A stretch of 64,000 bases of DNA, taken from contig NZ_BAABED010000001.1 of the NCBI RefSeq assembly GCF_039539965.1, positions 4,216,001 through 4,280,000 of the forward strand, read 5' to 3'. Of the stretch, positions 1,912 through 39,625 are shown in pieces (the first letter of the stretch is position 1; each line of letters opens with the position of its first letter). Source of the stretch: Arthrobacter methylotrophus (lineage in GTDB: Bacteria; Actinomycetota; Actinomycetes; Actinomycetales; Micrococcaceae). The notes beneath the pieces are model-generated. The model saw only the letters and a program-made list of their open reading frames with translations, was not told where the DNA came from and did not search any database. The position numbers were made by a program, and so were the translations under genes.

Positions 1912-3054
1912 TTAGGACGTTGCACAGACCACGCGGTTCCGCCCGAGGGACTTCGCCTGGTACAGGGCTTTATCAGCGGCCGCGATCATGTGCGTTATCT
2001 CGGCGTCGTTCGCCGTGCTGGGCGCGATGCCGTAGCTCACAGTGGGGAATGTGATGCCCTCCGAGGACTTTGCCGCGGCCAAACGGCGGCTGATTTCGCT
2101 CGCAACGATCTCGGCGCTCTCCACGTTGGCTCCTGGAAGCAGGATGGTGAATTCCTCTCCGCCATACCGTCCGACGAGATCCGTGTTGCGGACCGAGGCC
2201 CGGCACGCGGCGGCAAATGCCTGGATGGCCGTGTCGCCCGCGGCGTGGCCATGGCTGTCATTAACGGCCTTGAAGTGGTCGAGGTCGGCAAGGATCAAAG
2301 TGGAGACCGAGCCTGCAGAGTGCAATCTGTTGATTTCCTGCGTGGCCAACTCCATGAAGGCCGTGCGGTTGAGGAGCCCCGTCAGGCCGTCGTGTGTTGC
2401 GCGTTCGTTCAGCCCATTAATCAGCTGCTCGTTGCTCAGCGCCGTCATGCTGAAGGACACCGAGACCAGCAGCACCAAGGTGACTACGCTGGTGCTTGCC
2501 GAGCTGAGATAGGTGCCGAAGTCCGGCCCGTCGGGTCCTTCCACGAGGTACGCGACCCCTTGGCAGAGAAAGAATGCGGCGAGGACTCCCGCGGCCGCTG
2601 CCAGGGACCGGTGGGCGTGTGATGCGCTGGGCTTCAAACGCCACAGTTCAACCGTTGCCAAGCCCATGCCCATGGACATCATGGCCAGATACACGAGTCC
2701 GCCGGACCATACATTCGTTGCAGGGTTCTCGAGCGCAGCGGCCACAGCGGTGACGATGGGTCCCGTGAGGAGCTGCCACCACGGCATCGGGAGCAAACGC
2801 AACGAACGCGAACCCGCCCACACGCTGAAGGACCCCGACACCAGCAAAGTGCTGCCAAGGGGGACCGCCCAGATTTGCTGTGACGTCCCGCTGAGCAAGT
2901 ACGCCACGTTCCCCGAAAGAAGGAACACCAAGGCGAGGCACCACCAGCCGCTATACGGAGAGCGGGTCCGGCGGAACGCACCGAAAAACAGCAGGCAGAG
3001 GGTAAACGCGACGACACCCAGAGCTATCTTCAGACTGACCGGATCGAGACCCAT
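1912..3054 (-). CDS. Membrane-bound diguanylate cyclase (GGDEF domain)
   Basis: Makes cyclic di-GMP from two GTP at the inner face of the membrane. The first about 205 residues form roughly six or seven hydrophobic segments with short loops and no recognised ligand domain. A complete GGDEF domain follows: DGLTGLLNR near 222-230, metal-binding DLDHFK near 257-262, and the active-site variant GGEEF at 298-302. An RNTD sequence at 289-292, five residues before GGEEF, fits the RxxD inhibitory I-site, so product feedback is likely. There is no EAL or HD-GYP domain. No operon partner is evident; the neighbouring 3-hydroxybutyrate gene on the same strand is 91 bases upstream. Confidence 0.92.
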   Translation of the reverse strand: MGLDPVSLKIALGVVAFTLCLLFFGAFRRTRSPYSGWWCLALVFLLSGNVAYLLSGTSQQIWAVPLGSTLLVSGSFSVWAGSRSLRLLPMPWWQLLTGPIVTAVAAALENPATNVWSGGLVYLAMMSMGMGLATVELWRLKPSASHAHRSLAAAAGVLAAFFLCQGVAYLVEGPDGPDFGTYLSSASTSVVTLVLLVSVSFSMTALSNEQLINGLNERATHDGLTGLLNRTAFMELATQEINRLHSAGSVSTLILADLDHFKAVNDSHGHAAGDTAIQAFAAACRASVRNTDLVGRYGGEEFTILLPGANVESAEIVASEISRRLAAAKSSEGITFPTVSYGIAPSTANDAEITHMIAAADKALYQAKSLGRNRVVCATS

Positions 3055-11762: not shown

Positions 11763-13124
11763 ATGCAGGTGAACTCTGAACAAATCACGGTGACGGACAG
11801 CGACAGTGGCCTTCCGGGAGGGGCCCCGCGGCACGGAGGCCACGTCAAGGCCTCGACGGTTGCGGCCGACGTCGGGCAGCGGAACGGTGACGCCGAAAAG
11901 GCGGCTGCCCTGCGCCGGATGAAATCGGTGGCGCTGGCACTGCTGATCGTCATGGCGGTAGTTTTCACCGCCGCTTTCGCCTTGCAAAAGCAGTATCCGT
12001 GGCTGGAATACGTGCGGGCCGCAGCAGAGGGAGGCATGGTGGGAGCGCTGGCCGACTGGTTCGCCGTCACCGCGCTGTTCAAATACCCCATGGGCCTGAA
12101 AATCCCTCACACAGCCATCATCCCGAGGCGCAAGGACCAGATCGGCGCCTCGCTCGGGGAATTCGTGGAGACCAACTTCCTGTCCGAACAGGTGGTCCAG
12201 GAAAAGCTTGCGAGCCTTGACATCGCCCGGAAAGCCGGAAAATGGCTCGGGTCTGCCGCGGGCGCCGAGCGCGTCGCAAAGGAAGGGTCAGCGCTGATCC
12301 GAGGTGCGTTCACGGTGCTGAACGACGACGACATCCAAGCAGTGATTGAGGGCATGGTTCGCAAGCATTTGCTCGCACCGCCGTGGGGGCCACCGGTGGG
12401 ACGGATGGCCGAGCGGCTCTTCGCCGAAGGCCACCACCACAAGCTTGTGGACCTCCTGGTGGATCGCGCGGCCGACTGGGTGGAGGCGAACCACTCCACG
12501 GTGAACCGGGTCGTGTCCGACCGTTCTCCCCTCTGGGTTCCGTCCTTCGTGGACGACCTGGTGGGCGACAGGGTCTACAACGAGATTGCCAAGTTCGTCC
12601 GGGCGGTGCAGCGGGACCCCGATCACCAGGTGCGCCAGTCAATCGACACGTATCTCGGGGACCTCGCCCAGGACCTTCAGCACGATCCCGCAATGATTGC
12701 CCGGGCCGAGGGAATTAAGACCCAGATCCTTGGTGATCCCGAGGTCCGCGAACTGGCCTCCCGCACCTGGGGCACCATCAAGAACGCGCTGCTCACCGCC
12801 GTCGACGATCCCGACAGTGAGCTGACGCAGCGTTTCAAGAGCGCCATGCGGGACTTCGGTGCCCGGCTTGTCAGCGACGACGAGTTGGCAGGCAAGGTCA
12901 ACGTCTGGATCGGCGACGCTGCCGGCTACCTCGTCAAAACGTACCGCTCCGACATCGCCGGGGTCATCACGGACACCGTTGCCCGCTGGGATGCCCAGGA
13001 AACCTCGGAAAAGATCGAACTCCAGGTTGGCAAGGACCTGCAATACATCCGCATCAACGGAACCGTGGTGGGGTCGCTGGCAGGGCTGGCAATCTTCGCC
13101 GTGGCGCACTTGGTGTTCGGCTGA
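11763..13124 (+). CDS. DUF445 family membrane protein
   Basis: A 453-residue protein of the DUF445 family, unknown function. A hydrophobic helix (KSVALALLIVMAVVFTAAFAL) is followed by EGGMVGALADWFAVTALFKYPMGLKIPHTAIIPRRKDQIGASLGEFVE, the family hallmark. A long helical domain and a C-terminal membrane helix (VVGSLAGLAIFAVAHLVFG) complete it, preceded by the conserved LQYIRINGT. The topology fits a protein anchored at both ends. No ribosome site is obvious at ATG 11763. Confidence 0.88.
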   Translation: MQVNSEQITVTDSDSGLPGGAPRHGGHVKASTVAADVGQRNGDAEKAAALRRMKSVALALLIVMAVVFTAAFALQKQYPWLEYVRAAAEGGMVGALADWFAVTALFKYPMGLKIPHTAIIPRRKDQIGASLGEFVETNFLSEQVVQEKLASLDIARKAGKWLGSAAGAERVAKEGSALIRGAFTVLNDDDIQAVIEGMVRKHLLAPPWGPPVGRMAERLFAEGHHHKLVDLLVDRAADWVEANHSTVNRVVSDRSPLWVPSFVDDLVGDRVYNEIAKFVRAVQRDPDHQVRQSIDTYLGDLAQDLQHDPAMIARAEGIKTQILGDPEVRELASRTWGTIKNALLTAVDDPDSELTQRFKSAMRDFGARLVSDDELAGKVNVWIGDAAGYLVKTYRSDIAGVITDTVARWDAQETSEKIELQVGKDLQYIRINGTVVGSLAGLAIFAVAHLVFG

Positions 13125-13146
13125 CTTCCCCACAACCGGCACCAAT

Positions 13147-13351
13147 GGACATGCCCACCTTTGAGTAGCTCGAAGGGACATGCCCCACGTGGTCATCCAG
13201 AACCGGAAATGGACATGCTCACCCCTTGCCACAAGCAATGGACATAATCCCAATATGTCCACTCCTCACACCCAGCAAGGGACATGCCCCACGCGGTGTG
13301 CGCGCGAAGAAGGGACATGTCCACTCCTTGCAGCGAAGAAGGCGCATGTCC
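13147..13351. repeat. Array A of seven GGACATG-type palindromic motifs
   Basis: Between the convergent DUF445 and pxpC genes lie seven copies of a GGGACATGTCC-like motif, starting near 13147, 13175, 13211, 13240, 13279, 13312 and 13341. The one at 13240-13260 is the long form, GGACATA, 7 nt, TATGTCC (perfect 7-bp arms). Others read GGGACATGCCCC or GGGACATGTCC. Spacers of about 20-30 nt are not identical, so this is not a CRISPR array. A second array with the same motifs is at 38477-38692. Confidence 0.85.
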
Positions 13352-13365
13352 GGTGGAGCGGAACC

Positions 13366-14343
13366 TCAGCCGAGGAAGCGGATCCGCTGGCCAGGGCGCG
13401 CCTGGCCCAGCAGGTCCAGATCCGCGCGGCGCACCACCGCGATGACCGGATAGCCACCTGTCACGGGATGATCAGCCAGGAATATCGTGGGGAGGCCCGA
13501 CGGCGGCACTTGCAGGGCGCCGAGCACCATGCCTTCGCTGGGCAGTTCCTCGTTCCGGGTCTGGGTCAGCGGGCGGCCCACCAGCCGGGCGCCAATCCTG
13601 TTCGAATCAGGCGACAGGGTCCATTCCTGGCTGACAAGGCGGCGCCAGGACTCGTCGTCGAACCAGTCTGATCGGGGGCCGCGGTCCACGCGGGCGGTGA
13701 TGGCTCGCCCGGGATCAGGGGCCCGGCGGATAGCAGGGAGCGTGCCCGCCCCACGCCCCGTGCCCGCCCCACGCCCCGTGCCCGCCCCACGCCCCGTGCC
13801 CGCCCCACGCCCCGTGCCCGCCCCACGCCCCGTGCCCGCGCCGGGCCCCGGGCCAGGCCCTGACACCAAACCGTTGCCCGCGGAAACTCGCCCAACCACC
13901 AATTGTTCGCCCGATTTCAACGGAGCAGGGCCTTCACCGGAGAGCATGTCCGTACTGCTGGACCCGAGGAGCTGGGGCGCATCGATTCCGCCCTGCACCC
14001 CTAGGTAGTACCTCAGTCCGAACAGCGGTGCGCCAAAGTCCAACACAGCACCAGGTGCCACCCGGACGGCTTGGTTGAGCGGAATCTCGGCACCGTTGAG
14101 GGTCACGATTCCCTCTGCGCCCGCCACCGCAACGGTGGACGCGGTGATGAACCTCAAACGCAGGCCGCCCAACAGGATCTCAAGCCCAGCCGCCTCCGGA
14201 GAGTTCCCCACCAGCAGGTTGGCAAGGCGCAGGGATTGCCGGTCCAGGGCACCGGAAGGACTCAGCCCCAATGAAGCCCAACCCTGTCTGCCAAGGTCTT
14301 CCACCACAGTGAGCGGGCCGGGGTTCAGCACCACAATCCCCAT
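13366..14343 (-). CDS. pxpC: 5-oxoprolinase subunit C (biotin-dependent carboxylase-like, KipA type)
   Basis: Third subunit of the ATP-dependent 5-oxoprolinase that opens pyroglutamate to glutamate. Family marks: [43 protein letters not shown] at the N-terminus, [14 protein letters not shown], and [17 protein letters not shown] near the end. The gene touches pxpB at a TGATG junction. Between about residues 166 and 202 the protein contains TGRGAG repeats encoded by an 18-bp minisatellite; this insert lies between conserved blocks and is probably a surface loop. The frame stays open, so the gene looks functional. Confidence 0.9.
13741..13848. repeat. 18-bp in-frame tandem repeat inside pxpC
   Basis: Five exact copies of an 18-bp unit (CGTGCCCGCCCCACGCCC on the + strand) and a sixth diverged copy, with no interruption. 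It encodes repeated Thr-Gly-Arg-Gly-Ala-Gly in pxpC. Copy-number change would keep the frame. Confidence 0.95.
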
Positions 14344-35013: not shown

Positions 35014-35292
35014 ATGTCCGAACGTACCGCCACCATCGCCAGCCGCGTCGGCCTGCACGCCCGCCCGGCAGCCATCTTCGCCGAGGCCGCCGGCGAGCTT
35101 GACCTCGAGGTCACCATCGCCCGCGAAGGCGAGCCCATCGACGACGCCATGGACGCCGCCAGCATTCTCTCCCTCATGAGCCTGGGAGCTTCATTCGGCG
35201 ACGTCGTGGTGCTCCGTGCCGAGGGCGCCGGCGCCGACGAAGCACTGGACCGTCTCGTGAAGATCCTCGAGACAGACCACGACGCCGAATAA
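35014..35292 (+). CDS. ptsH: PTS phosphocarrier protein HPr
   Basis: Carries phosphate from enzyme I to EIIA. 92 residues, with the active site SRVGLHARPAA (His15) and the conserved helix region SILSLMSLGASFGDVVVL. GAAGGAG lies 7 bases before ATG 35014. It lies 64 bases after fruA, so it is probably in or tied to the fructose operon; enzyme I (ptsI) is not in the window. Confidence 0.95.
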   Translation: MSERTATIASRVGLHARPAAIFAEAAGELDLEVTIAREGEPIDDAMDAASILSLMSLGASFGDVVVLRAEGAGADEALDRLVKILETDHDAE

Positions 35293-35314
35293 CCCACCGA
35301 GCATGCCCCCTCCT

Positions 35315-35361
35315 GGCTGCGAGGGATGGACATATTCCTACTATGTCCATCCCTCGCAGCC
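35315..35361. terminator. 20-bp perfect hairpin carrying the GGACATA element
   Basis: Perfect 20-bp arms (35315-35334 and 35342-35361) with a 7-nt loop, between convergent ptsH and topoisomerase genes. The upper stem is the 21-bp core GGACATA, 7 nt, TATGTCC (35328-35348) that recurs in the arrays at 13147 and 38477. A terminator role is plausible, and it also looks like a solo copy of the repeat family. Confidence 0.75.
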
Positions 35362-35411
35362 TACGGGGAGCATGCTCCTTGCTTTTCAGGGCAAATGTTC
35401 AGGGCAAATGT

Positions 35412-36362
35412 TCAGGGCAAAGACGCCCAGTAGGCCGCGATATCCCGCTCCGTGGCCCTGAGATGAGCGAGATCGCCGGCCAGGAACCCGTCGACGAGGC
35501 GCGGATCTATGTAGGCGGCCCTCGCCACCGTTGGGGTGTTGCCAAGCAGTTCGGCAGTTTGCTTGATGGCTTCAAGGATTCGACGGCGGGCAGGCACTTC
35601 AGATTCGCCTGCCAACGCCATGCCGGCAGCCACTGTGCCTTTCCACGTCCGGAAGTCCTTGGCCGTGTAGTTGCCGCCCGTGATGTGACGAAGATATTCG
35701 TTGACCATCGTGGCGTTCAAGGAGACCCGGTTGCCACGTTCATGAAAGACCAGCAGCGGCTCCTTTGCAGCCCTGCTGGCCACGGGTTCGAGGAATCGGG
35801 CCAGCGCAGCGTCCTCGATACTTGATTCCCATGCTTGGCCGCTCTTTCCCGGGAAATCCAAGGACACCACGTCTCCGGTGACCTGCACGTGCTTGCACCT
35901 CAACGTGGTGAGGCCATACGAGCCGTTGCGGCGCGTGTAGCCATCTGATCCAACGCGCAACGCCCCGAGATCCATGAGCCGCACTGCCGCGGCCAGGGCC
36001 CTGGTCTTTTCCGAGGGTGACTCTCTCAAGTGTCGTGATGCCAAGCGGCGCGCCTTGGGCAGGACAGTGCCGAGCCGCGCAGCCCGGGTGAACTTTTCAG
36101 TGTCCTGACGGGCCCGCCACTCCGGGTGGTAGATGTATTGGCTCCGGCCGGCGTCGTCCACCCCCATTGCCTGGATATGCCCGTTCTCAAAGGGACATAT
36201 CCAGACATCCGCCCACGCCGGAGGGATCGCCAGCGCATCAAGGCGCTTGCGATCCCCACCCGCGATAAGGGATCCGTCCGGGCGGTGGTAGCTAAATCCG
36301 CGGCCCGACCTTGTCCGGGAAATGCCGGGCATCCCGGGTTTGCTGCGGCGGAGCCGTGGCAT
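35412..36362 (-). CDS. DNA topoisomerase IB (poxvirus/bacterial type)
   Basis: Relaxes supercoils through a 3'-phosphotyrosyl nick. 316 residues: N-terminal domain with GFSYHRPDG, IPPAWADVWICPFENGHIQAMGVDDAGRSQYIYHP, catalytic domain with LRVGSDGYTRRNGSYGLTTLRCKHV, KDFRTWKGTVAAG, and nucleophile Tyr284 in ARAAYIDPRLV. It lies near dps, ku and ligD, a grouping that suggests work on DNA damage or stationary-phase chromosome upkeep. Confidence 0.92.
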   Translation of the reverse strand: MPRLRRSKPGMPGISRTRSGRGFSYHRPDGSLIAGGDRKRLDALAIPPAWADVWICPFENGHIQAMGVDDAGRSQYIYHPEWRARQDTEKFTRAARLGTVLPKARRLASRHLRESPSEKTRALAAAVRLMDLGALRVGSDGYTRRNGSYGLTTLRCKHVQVTGDVVSLDFPGKSGQAWESSIEDAALARFLEPVASRAAKEPLLVFHERGNRVSLNATMVNEYLRHITGGNYTAKDFRTWKGTVAAGMALAGESEVPARRRILEAIKQTAELLGNTPTVARAAYIDPRLVDGFLAGDLAHLRATERDIAAYWASLP

Positions 36363-37745: not shown

Positions 37746-38174
37746 ATGCCGACTATCTCTGACCCGGTTGTTCCCAGCGGCGCACCGCGCCCAGGAGCGG
37801 AACGAATCTGGTGCGGCAAATGCGGTACCAACGAGCACGTGATTCTAGATTCAATTGAGCCCCTGGAACCGCCGTCCGCAGAGCTCGTGGATATCGCTTA
37901 CACGTGCGTTGAATGCGATACGTTTTATGCCCATGCCTCGACTTTCAGGGACGTGGCGGAGATCCTGAACCAACGCGGCACGGTATCAGGGGTGCTTCAA
38001 TTCGGCGGTGAATACATCCATTGCGGGGAACCCATGAAGATCGCGGGAACCGGATTCCACAGCGTGTATGCACCAATGTCCACCGAAGACCCCGCGGTGG
38101 ATCTTCTCGACGTGTACCTGGCGACGAAGGTGTTGCGGTGCCGCTGCGGGTTCCGGATGGAACTTCCGTCATAG
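37746..38174 (+). CDS. Cys-rich putative zinc-binding protein, paralogue B
   Basis: Function unknown. Shares with the product of 30026-30457 the ordered blocks [41 protein letters not shown] and [13 protein letters not shown]; the seven aligned cysteines and the DSI/ESI segment after the first pair are kept. AAGGAG 8 nt upstream selects ATG 37746 over GTG 37737 and ATG 37740. It is followed after 26 bases by the Rho-N-type gene. Setting among CsbD, Dps and repair genes hints at a stress role (inference). Confidence 0.75.
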
Positions 38175-38200
38175 CCGGGACTGGACCGCAGGAGGAACTC

Positions 38201-38467
38201 ATGCCAAACAAGAAGAACCCCAGCCTCAAAGATCCGGAACTTTACGAAACTCTCCGGGAGGACGGCGCCTCGAAGGAAAAGGCCGCCAGGATCTCCAATG
38301 CGGCTGCGAAAGAGGGCCGCAAGGAAATCGGCCGCCGCGGGGGCACCTCGGGAGACTACGAGGACTGGACCGTGGCCCAACTGAAGTCCCGCGCCAAGGA
38401 GCTGGGCCTCACAGGCTACTCAAGCAAGAAGAAGGCCGAGCTGATCTCGGCGTTGAGGAACCACTGA
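38201..38467 (+). CDS. Small protein with Rho-N/SAP-like C-terminal domain
   Basis: 88 residues. N-terminal half is a basic helical segment ([40 protein letters not shown]); the C-terminal half, [37 protein letters not shown], is a Rho N-terminal/SAP-type helix-extended-loop-helix that binds nucleic acids. GGAGGA precedes ATG 38201. Homologues are common in actinobacteria; SAP domains also occur in some Ku proteins, and Ku is the next gene, convergent. Confidence 0.87.
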
Positions 38468-38476
38468 ACCACCACT

Positions 38477-38692
38477 GGACATGCCCTCCGCTCAGGCCAA
38501 GGAACGGACATATTCCCTTCATGTCCACTCCTGCCTTCGCACGAGGGACATGTCCAGTCTTCGCGCGGGGACAACGAGGGACATGTCCAGTGGTGTCGCG
38601 CAGGGGGACCGGGGGACATGTCCAGTGTTCGTGCCAAGGAACGGACATATTCCCATCATGTCCACTCCTGCCTCCTCACGCGGGGCATGTCC
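38477..38692. repeat. Array B of seven GGACATG-type palindromic motifs
   Basis: Seven motifs between convergent Rho-N and ku genes: GGACATGCCC at 38477; 21-bp long forms at 38506-38526 and 38643-38663 (GGACATA, 7 nt, ending CATGTCC); GGGACATGTCC at 38545, 38578 and 38613; GGGGCATGTCC at 38682. A direct repeat of about 72 bases (near 38499-38571 and 38636-38708) shows part of the array was duplicated. Sister of the array at 13147-13351. Confidence 0.87.
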
Positions 38693-38722: not shown

Positions 38723-39625
38723 TCAGGCTTTCTTGACCCTCGCCCTGGGCTTGCTGGCCGCCTTGGCGCTAGCGGCGTCGTCGGACTCCTCAGCGGCCGA
38801 ACCAGCGGCCGAACCAACGGACGAACCAGTAGACGCCTTGCCGCGCTTCTTGTCGAGGCTGCGTTTGAGCGCTTCCATGAGGTCGATGACTTCTCCACCT
38901 TCGCCTTCGCTCGCAGAAACGCCGAACGTCTCCTCGGTGTCGATGGAGTCGCCCTTTTCGAGTTTGGCGGCGATGAGTTGGCGCAATTGAACCTGGTAGT
39001 TGTCGGTGTATTGCTCGGGCTCGAAGTCACGCGCCATGGAGTCCACGAGGGCCGAGGACATCTCCAGCTCCTTGTCCGAGATTTTGACGTCGGTGTCCAG
39101 CGAGGGGAAGTTGGCCTCGCGGACCTCGTCGTCCCAGAGCAGGGATTGCAGCATCAGCACGTCACCACGTACCCGCAGCGCGCCCAACCTGGTCTTCTGC
39201 CGGAGGGCGTACTGCACAATGGCGACGCGCTCGGTGTCCTGCAGGGTGCGCAGAAGCAGCATGTAGGCCTTGGGAGACTTGGAGTCCGGTTCGAGGTAGT
39301 AGGGACGCTCGTACATGATGGGGTCCAACTGCTCCGCAGGGACGAACTCCACCACTTCGATCTCGCGGCTGTTCTCCGCGGGCAGCGACTTCAAATCGGC
39401 CGCGGACAGCACCACGGTGCGGCCTTCCTCTTCGTAGGCCTTGTCGATATCCTCATAATCCACAACAGAGGCACAGATTTCGCACTTCCGTTGGTAGCGG
39501 ATGCGGCCTCCGTCCTTGTTGTGGACTTGGTGGAGACTGACGTCGTGGTCCTCGGTGGCACTGTAGAGCTTGACGGGTACGTTGACCAGCCCAAACGCGA
39601 TAGAACCCTTCCATATGGCCCTCAT
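38723..39625 (-). CDS. ku: Non-homologous end joining protein Ku
   Basis: Binds DNA double-strand ends and recruits LigD. 300 residues, with the bacterial Ku core beginning MRAIWKGSIAFGLVNVPVKLYSATEDHDVSLHQVHNKDGGRIRYQRKCEICASVVDYEDIDKAYE. It continues through LLRTLQDTERVAIVQYALRQKTRLGALRV and ends in a Lys/Ala/Arg-rich tail (ASAKAASKPRARVKKA), probably DNA-binding. Divergent from ligD with 38 bases between starts, so shared regulation is expected. Confidence 0.96.
   Translation of the reverse strand: MRAIWKGSIAFGLVNVPVKLYSATEDHDVSLHQVHNKDGGRIRYQRKCEICASVVDYEDIDKAYEEEGRTVVLSAADLKSLPAENSREIEVVEFVPAEQLDPIMYERPYYLEPDSKSPKAYMLLLRTLQDTERVAIVQYALRQKTRLGALRVRGDVLMLQSLLWDDEVREANFPSLDTDVKISDKELEMSSALVDSMARDFEPEQYTDNYQVQLRQLIAAKLEKGDSIDTEETFGVSASEGEGGEVIDLMEALKRSLDKKRGKASTGSSVGSAAGSAAEESDDAASAKAASKPRARVKKA

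Follow-up and report, generated by a model that had tools for sequence, protein, structure and literature searches.

The BIME and REP elements of enterobacteria often lie behind genes and avoid divergent promoters, and protection or tuning of mRNA 3' ends has been proposed for the REPs of E. coli. MITE- and ERIC-like elements are dispersed imperfect palindromes of about 80-130 bp, and operators of the HspR/HAIR type are dyads with a 7-N7-7 geometry. As described in the parts of the source available to us, REPINs are inverted REP doublets at a fixed distance, which form hairpins, show compensatory changes and are tied to RAYTs; they sometimes form ordered tandem clusters, their less conserved spacer can pair, and REP doublets are reported to be randomly distributed in extragenic space (PMC3116915). 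The element family that we describe here is REPIN-like in form, yet we do not class it as REPIN, because no tie to a RAYT was found and neither the GTAG nor the CGTC tag was seen.

An initial annotation of the window (the whole stretch of DNA analysed, 64 kb) had pointed out seven related motifs at 13147-13351, and these are indeed present: six boxes, starting at 13147, 13176, 13211, 13280, 13313 and 13342, and one GGACATA-N7-TATGTCC at 13240-13260. The comparison with shuffled sequence that it proposed bears out an excess over chance, since GGACATGTCC occurs 18 times in the window with at most one mismatch, against 2.66 +/- 1.82 in shuffled sequence, and none of 100 shuffles reached 18. The statement that each motif is itself a palindrome applies to only one of the six boxes, the perfect GGACATGTCC at 13313; four of the six are GGACATGCCC or GGACATGCTC and are therefore oriented. 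The description of the spacers as non-repeated also needs qualifying, because they carry structure: 13211-13289 forms one 79-bp dyad, and a 29-bp interval between boxes recurs along the array (13147/13176, 13211/13240 and 13313/13342). The unit is not the 10-bp palindrome GGACATGTCC, as first proposed, but a 79-bp dyad of four boxes, of which the window holds four full copies. The window has six convergent gaps of 60 bp or more, and the copies occupy three of them. Three of these copies (35299-35377, 38477-38555 and 38614-38692) were absent from the earlier finding, and the first of them takes up the larger part of the 119 bp that separate the convergent genes for HPr and topoisomerase IB. Loose boxes also occur in the window, often again 29 bp apart. 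Scores are those of a covariance model (R1), built from copies of the same genome and used for the genome and genus searches.

11763-13124, + strand: flanking gene, DUF445 protein (PF04286, 393.9 bits)
13147-13156 and 13176-13185, unstranded: partial element, two extra GGACATGCCC boxes 29 bp apart (weak R1 match at 13144-13187, 25.2 bits)
13211-13289, unstranded: full 79-bp element of array 1 (R1 82.7 bits, and alignment), with a box at 13211-13220, the inner core at 13240-13260 and a box at 13280-13289
13313-13351, unstranded: partial element, perfect GGACATGTCC and GCGCATGTCC, 29 bp apart (weak R1 match at 13310-13353, 30.9 bits)
13366-14343, - strand: flanking gene, carboxyltransferase subdomain A/B protein, initially annotated as pxpC (PF02626, 272.7 bits)
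35014-35292, + strand: flanking gene, PTS phosphocarrier HPr (PF00381)
35299-35377, unstranded: full element, near-perfect hairpin (R1 77.1 bits)
35412-36362, - strand: flanking gene, bacterial topoisomerase IB (PF01028, PF21338)
38138-38467, + strand: flanking gene, protein with DUF7218 and Rho_N domains (PF23855, PF07498)
38477-38555, unstranded: full element, first copy of array 2 (R1 77.6 bits)
38579-38588, unstranded: single GGACATGTCC box between the elements of array 2
38614-38692, unstranded: full element, second copy of array 2 (R1 77.1 bits)
38723-39625, - strand: flanking gene, Ku (PF02735)

Inside the carboxyltransferase gene, at 13740-13850, an 18-nt unit is repeated in tandem about five times, and the protein repeats GAGTGR.

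Each 79-bp copy reads GGACATGCCC, 19 bp, GGACATA, 7 bp, TATGTCC, 19 bp and GGGCATGTCC; that is, two inverted halves flank a 7-bp centre whose sequence is free, and in each half an inner GGACATA and an RRRCATGYYY-like outer box lie exactly 29 bp from each other. The geometry is rigid, and 23 copies from the same genome align over 84 columns with zero gaps. Allowing spacers of 2 to 15 bp between exact inner boxes in Arthrobacter loci, the spacer was of 7 bp in all 204 distinct contexts, some of whose loci had been retrieved with a fixed-N7 pattern, and the offset of the outer CATG was exact in 194 of the 204 on the left side and in 191 on the right. Likewise, among the matches listed in a scan with GGACATA-N4..8-TATGTCC, all were N7 except for one N6. 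The outer boxes, GGACATGCCC and GGGCATGTCC, are similar to half-sites of p53 response elements, a likeness that we take as coincidence; by title, the literature matches listed for GGACATGTCC deal with p53 or other eukaryotic work. Separately, a classic terminator at 2929-3004 of locus L147 has, ahead of its T-run, a stem with GGAACATGCCC in it; this sequence is close to that of the outer box and may point to the origin of the latter.

Comparison of copies from matching gaps gave differences of 7.7% in the outer box, 5.1% in the inner box, 25.8% in the linker, 24.8% in the loop and 46.2% in the 20 bp outside, as calculated from 151 element pairs (nearest partner, dropping those with more than 34 differences), some of which are perhaps tandem copies within one genome and not orthologues. 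The rate of change in boxes is thus three to five times lower than in linkers, although this contrast is an upper limit, because copies without boxes escape detection and 120 of the stretches were retrieved by an exact inner core. In the 23 aligned copies, covariation between the arms was 0.199, against 0.162 +/- 0.012 in shuffles (none of 500 as high) and 0.083-0.118 in slid controls; 75.9% of the cells were paired, against 73.1 when shuffled (one of 500 shuffles as high), and 74 cells were changed on both sides, against 57.5 (one of 500). The remaining two of the five pair measures did not exceed the shuffles in these 23 copies, namely the pairs changed on both sides (21 versus 18.8; 83 of 500 shuffles) and the further pair types (52 versus 52.2). 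In a set of 69 copies, none sharing more than 72% identity, pairs 27-31/55-59 of the inner stem exceeded the shuffles with z values of 2.5, 2.6, 1.5, 3.3 and 3.6, and pairs 3/83, 5/81 and 35/51 reached 2.1, 2.9 and 2.3, with 12 of the 13 linker pairs remaining below z 2. Compensatory changes are therefore shown for the inner stem, and they could alternatively arise by copying between the arms of the inverted repeat.

The excess of motifs extends to the full genome, where GGACATGYCC has 125+114 strand matches against 9+8 for the reversed pattern, many of the single matches falling within genes. Model R1 retrieved 32 full-length places, plus partial ones, after merging matches on both strands with scores above 41 bits and excluding one overlapping secondary match (40.2 bits). 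Together with one partial element, they make 33 places in 27 gaps, 17 of them convergent, nine tandem and one divergent, as oriented with our own simple gene caller. As background we used gaps of at least 60 bp from 20 evenly spaced 20-kb stretches and the window; among these 212 gaps, 31 were convergent, four of which hold elements, and 48 divergent. The convergent excess (17/27 versus 31/212) had a p of 1e-8 and the divergent deficit a p of 0.02, so the initial finding withstood both the genome-wide and the convergent-gap comparisons that had been proposed for it. In other genomes, 44 gaps taken from the best model matches were distributed as 22 convergent, 17 tandem and five divergent. Including redundant loci, copies started at a median of 42 nt after the stop codon on convergent sides; in tandem gaps, the median distance from the upstream gene was 35 nt. 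The median distance to the next start codon was 156 nt. In all, the elements prefer gene 3' ends, and convergent gaps above all. Along the chromosome, a stretch of 1.45 Mb (G000:C1:1470877-2924506) has no element (P 0.002 for 27 uniform sites); the prevailing coding strand in the sample of 20 stretches flips near 2.2 Mb, and the element-free stretch may therefore span the terminus.

This location could also reflect a role in RNA, with the element being a 3' UTR hairpin that acts as a bidirectional terminator or that protects or tunes mRNA 3' ends. Such a role would agree with the position of the copies, near stop codons (medians of 42 or 35 nt) and far from starts (156 nt), and with the very stable folds of some of them, with z down to -13. 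The folding energy of the copy at 35299-35377 is -64 kcal/mol for RNA (z -11.9) and -36.9 for DNA (z -11.3); as DNA, the fold of 38477-38555 is also strong (z -6.1), and those of 38614-38692 (z -2.4) and 13211-13289 (z -2.0, equalled by 9 of 200 shuffles) are weak. The surroundings of array 1 would fit as well, because 12900-13700 contains no intrinsic terminator with a GC-rich stem and a T-run, and in two genomes without the family a classic terminator-like hairpin, identified by eye, replaces the element, behind HPr in G008 (L443) and between DUF7218 and Ku in G060 (L421). However, the elements carry no T-run, and the strand that would be transcribed shows no advantage. On the sense strand of 70 distinct tandem copies, we counted 41 G.U and 66 A.C in the boxes and 38 and 40, respectively, in the inner stems, with no excess of G.U over A.C, and the sense strand folded better than the antisense in 32 of the 70 (p 0.33). 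These two negative strand tests leave the hairpin-in-transcript function, one of the options initially considered, without support. In 16 copies from divergent gaps, whose orientation is arbitrary, the + strand folded better in 12 (p 0.07), a difference from which we draw nothing. In our own simple scan, classic terminators were equally frequent in convergent gaps with and without elements (27/71 versus 19/49), and occurred in 5/54 tandem gaps with elements versus 39/243 without them (p 0.29); the idea that the element substitutes for classic terminators was hence not supported across many gaps. Rfam gave no match above the gathering score in the whole window, and a relaxed search of six element loci retrieved, over the elements, just sub-threshold microRNA hairpins (best 31.8 bits versus a gathering score of 70). 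Given the negative strand tests and the equal terminator frequencies, we prefer a constraint on DNA; the constraint looks DNA-level, and we consider a role in RNA unlikely.

The family is widely but unevenly distributed in Arthrobacter. The pattern GGACATA-N4..8-TATGTCC appeared in 18 of 61 Arthrobacter genomes, including that of the window, and in none of 38 from other families of the order, and R1, at an E value of 0.01, found the family in 60 of 198 Arthrobacter genomes. Among these 60 carriers, 54 have at least 23 scored matches, counting strands apart, and the other six have 1 to 14, so that the distribution in the genus is mostly all or none. A four-box pattern with up to two mismatches, which is stricter than R1 and missed two genomes found by the model (G130 and G148), was present in 6 of 24 Arthrobacter genomes and in 1 of 271 from other genera of the same taxonomic family. 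Carriers, as named from at least 120 stretches, include Arthrobacter bambusae, A. humicola, A. oryzae, Arthrobacter sp. Hiyo8, Arthrobacter sp. MA-N2 and Pseudarthrobacter oxydans CC185. Of 158 core matches in loci L163-L296, which include some places counted twice, 134 had at least six of the eight outer CATG letters placed and 24 had four or fewer. On a DUF445 gene tree of the 30 best-scoring genomes (17 carriers and 13 non-carriers), the carrier label changes twice, against a shuffled mean of 10.1, and carriers therefore cluster, within the limits of a single gene as a weak species tree.

Two metagenomic assemblies carry the element under other labels. The MAG 'Acidobacteria bacterium isolate G2_11' (L168 and L212; G236, the same as the sister-genus carrier G661) has 14 copies, with differently oriented outer boxes and GCGCATGTCC on the left. 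It places within the window's own taxonomic family, so its public label looks wrong, and a spread to another phylum, suggested by the contigs of this MAG, was dropped; the four-box pattern, searched in 396 genomes from the phylum of G236, was found in a single one, G236 itself. A contig labelled Ramlibacter sp. RYN_567 (L255), with one full element, is probably a mis-binned Arthrobacter contig. We also discarded an origin in viruses or plasmids: array 1 had no plasmid match and array 2 no phage match, and in 48 viral stretches none of the 47 scorable core matches had six or more of the eight outer CATG letters placed.

All 33 places of the genome of origin (G000) have a counterpart in G117, of the same species, 32 of them identified by both flanks and one (3281261) by a single flank and part of the element. 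At three sites the two genomes differ by complete tandem units, each about 105 bp long: 109771, with two copies in G117; 287496-287702, with two copies in G117 instead of three; and 2924506/2924611, with one instead of two. Several other sites show small indels of up to 40 bp around the elements. There was no insertion difference indicative of copying to new sites among the 33 places, and no pair of empty and filled sites turned up between G000 and G117. Matching gaps of other species are often occupied as well. In the DUF445/pxpC gap of six genomes, elements are recognisable in G000, G022, G054, G145 and G200, with a varying copy number, and a degraded one in G129; the HPr/topoisomerase gap has one element each in G212, G200 and G129. 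Older gains or losses do exist between species, in that elements are present in the DUF7218/Ku gap of G212, G022, G200 and G129, and the gap is empty in five carriers (G050, G010, G044, G171 and G228) and in six non-carriers (G060, G013, G004, G042, G016 and G036).

The initial suggestion of a REP- or BIME-like element holds for the existence of a dispersed palindromic family and for its enrichment in convergent gaps of its own genome, and fails for the unit and for the linked RAYT (Y1) transposase. The Y1_Tnp domain (PF01797) was absent from G000 and G117 and was found in only 1 of 71 genomes searched; the same search was positive in 5 of 14 known genomes used as control. A RAYT-linked REP was accordingly rejected. 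The family is, as a REP would be, a dispersed, extragenic, multi-copy palindrome (32 full copies in 27 gaps), made of an inverted pair with a fixed spacer length and compensatory pairing, and its hairpins and tandem clusters also recall REPINs as the accessible parts of PMC3116915 describe them. A true REP/REPIN population spread by a RAYT is nevertheless highly improbable, because 30 of the 31 carriers among the 71 genomes, including that of the window, lack PF01797 (the sole positive, G032, is a carrier), and because the few flanking columns aligned, from consensus sequences of 23 and 69 copies, contain no GTAG or CGTC tag. The terminal inverted repeats, the dispersed copies, the preference for gene ends and the patchy distribution (60/198 genomes) would also be expected from a relic MITE, that is, from copies, themselves non-autonomous and with no present function, of a non-Y1 DNA transposon that is extinct or has gone unrecognised. 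This we regard as quite improbable, considering that boxes change less than linkers and loop (in detection-biased figures), that the internal spacing is rigid and that no autonomous copy was seen.

We favour, with modest confidence, a REPIN-like family without RAYT that is constrained as DNA, is now inherited vertically and is probably retained as a putative multi-box protein site. An ancestral copying machinery would have spread the copies; those present today would be inherited vertically, their number growing and shrinking mainly as tandem units are gained or lost. A putative DNA-binding protein would read the element as double-stranded or hairpin DNA, which would explain why the box spacing is kept fixed, and copies may have survived at gene ends because promoters are not broken there. 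We infer both this protein and its function; by eye, we recognised no partner among the protein clusters listed for the neighbourhood of elements, nor a partner gene beside the sister-genus copies. Against the favoured reading we count the weak DNA folds of two of the four window copies (z -2.0 and -2.4) and the five carriers without an element in a gap that is occupied in four others. A bolder and doubtful proposal is that the elements are putative sites of a clade-specific four-box chromosomal protein that marks gene 3' ends, convergent ones foremost, and which might act on the double-stranded chromosome as, for example, a bidirectional roadblock or a loop anchor. If true, bacteria would have a dedicated gene-end architecture that is gained or lost whole between related species.

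The initial annotation knew of no described element of this sequence, and the literature that we searched likewise gave no description of the family; GGACATGCCC in combination with 'bacteri' and 'intergenic' had no literature match, and the RepRanger paper, in the parts accessible to us, gives just counts for A. livingstonensis (PMC12306157). An old, positionally stable REPIN-like population without Y1_Tnp points either to a different machinery for copying or to elements domesticated as sites for proteins. With many Arthrobacter species sequenced, and the family nearly all-or-none among them, looking for its partner protein becomes a straightforward task of genome comparison.

Comparison with known systems delimits the family further. 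Its inner core, two 7-bp arms around 7 bp, is like an operator of the HspR/HAIR type, although the elements lie at gene ends and not at promoters, have two outer boxes at a constant offset and occur in dozens of copies. As a dispersed imperfect palindrome, the element also falls in the size class of MITE/ERIC elements, but no related transposase ends or target duplications were identified and its internal geometry is constrained. It shares with the BIME/REP of enterobacteria (PMC3733652) the condition of small extragenic palindrome, whereas its sequence differs, it has no GTAG/CGTC tag and its four-box unit is longer and rigid. The likeness is broadest with REPINs, as far as the available parts of PMC3116915 describe them: two conserved inverted blocks at a fixed distance, a spacer capable of pairing, compensatory changes, an extragenic location and tandem clusters. 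In contrast to REPINs, the Arthrobacter genome has no Y1_Tnp gene, and each half is composed of two boxes spaced by 29 bp, the halves enclosing a free 7-bp centre. Moreover, the elements favour convergent gaps, unlike the REP doublets, random in extragenic space according to the same parts of that source, and 33 of 33 places are common to two genomes of the same species.
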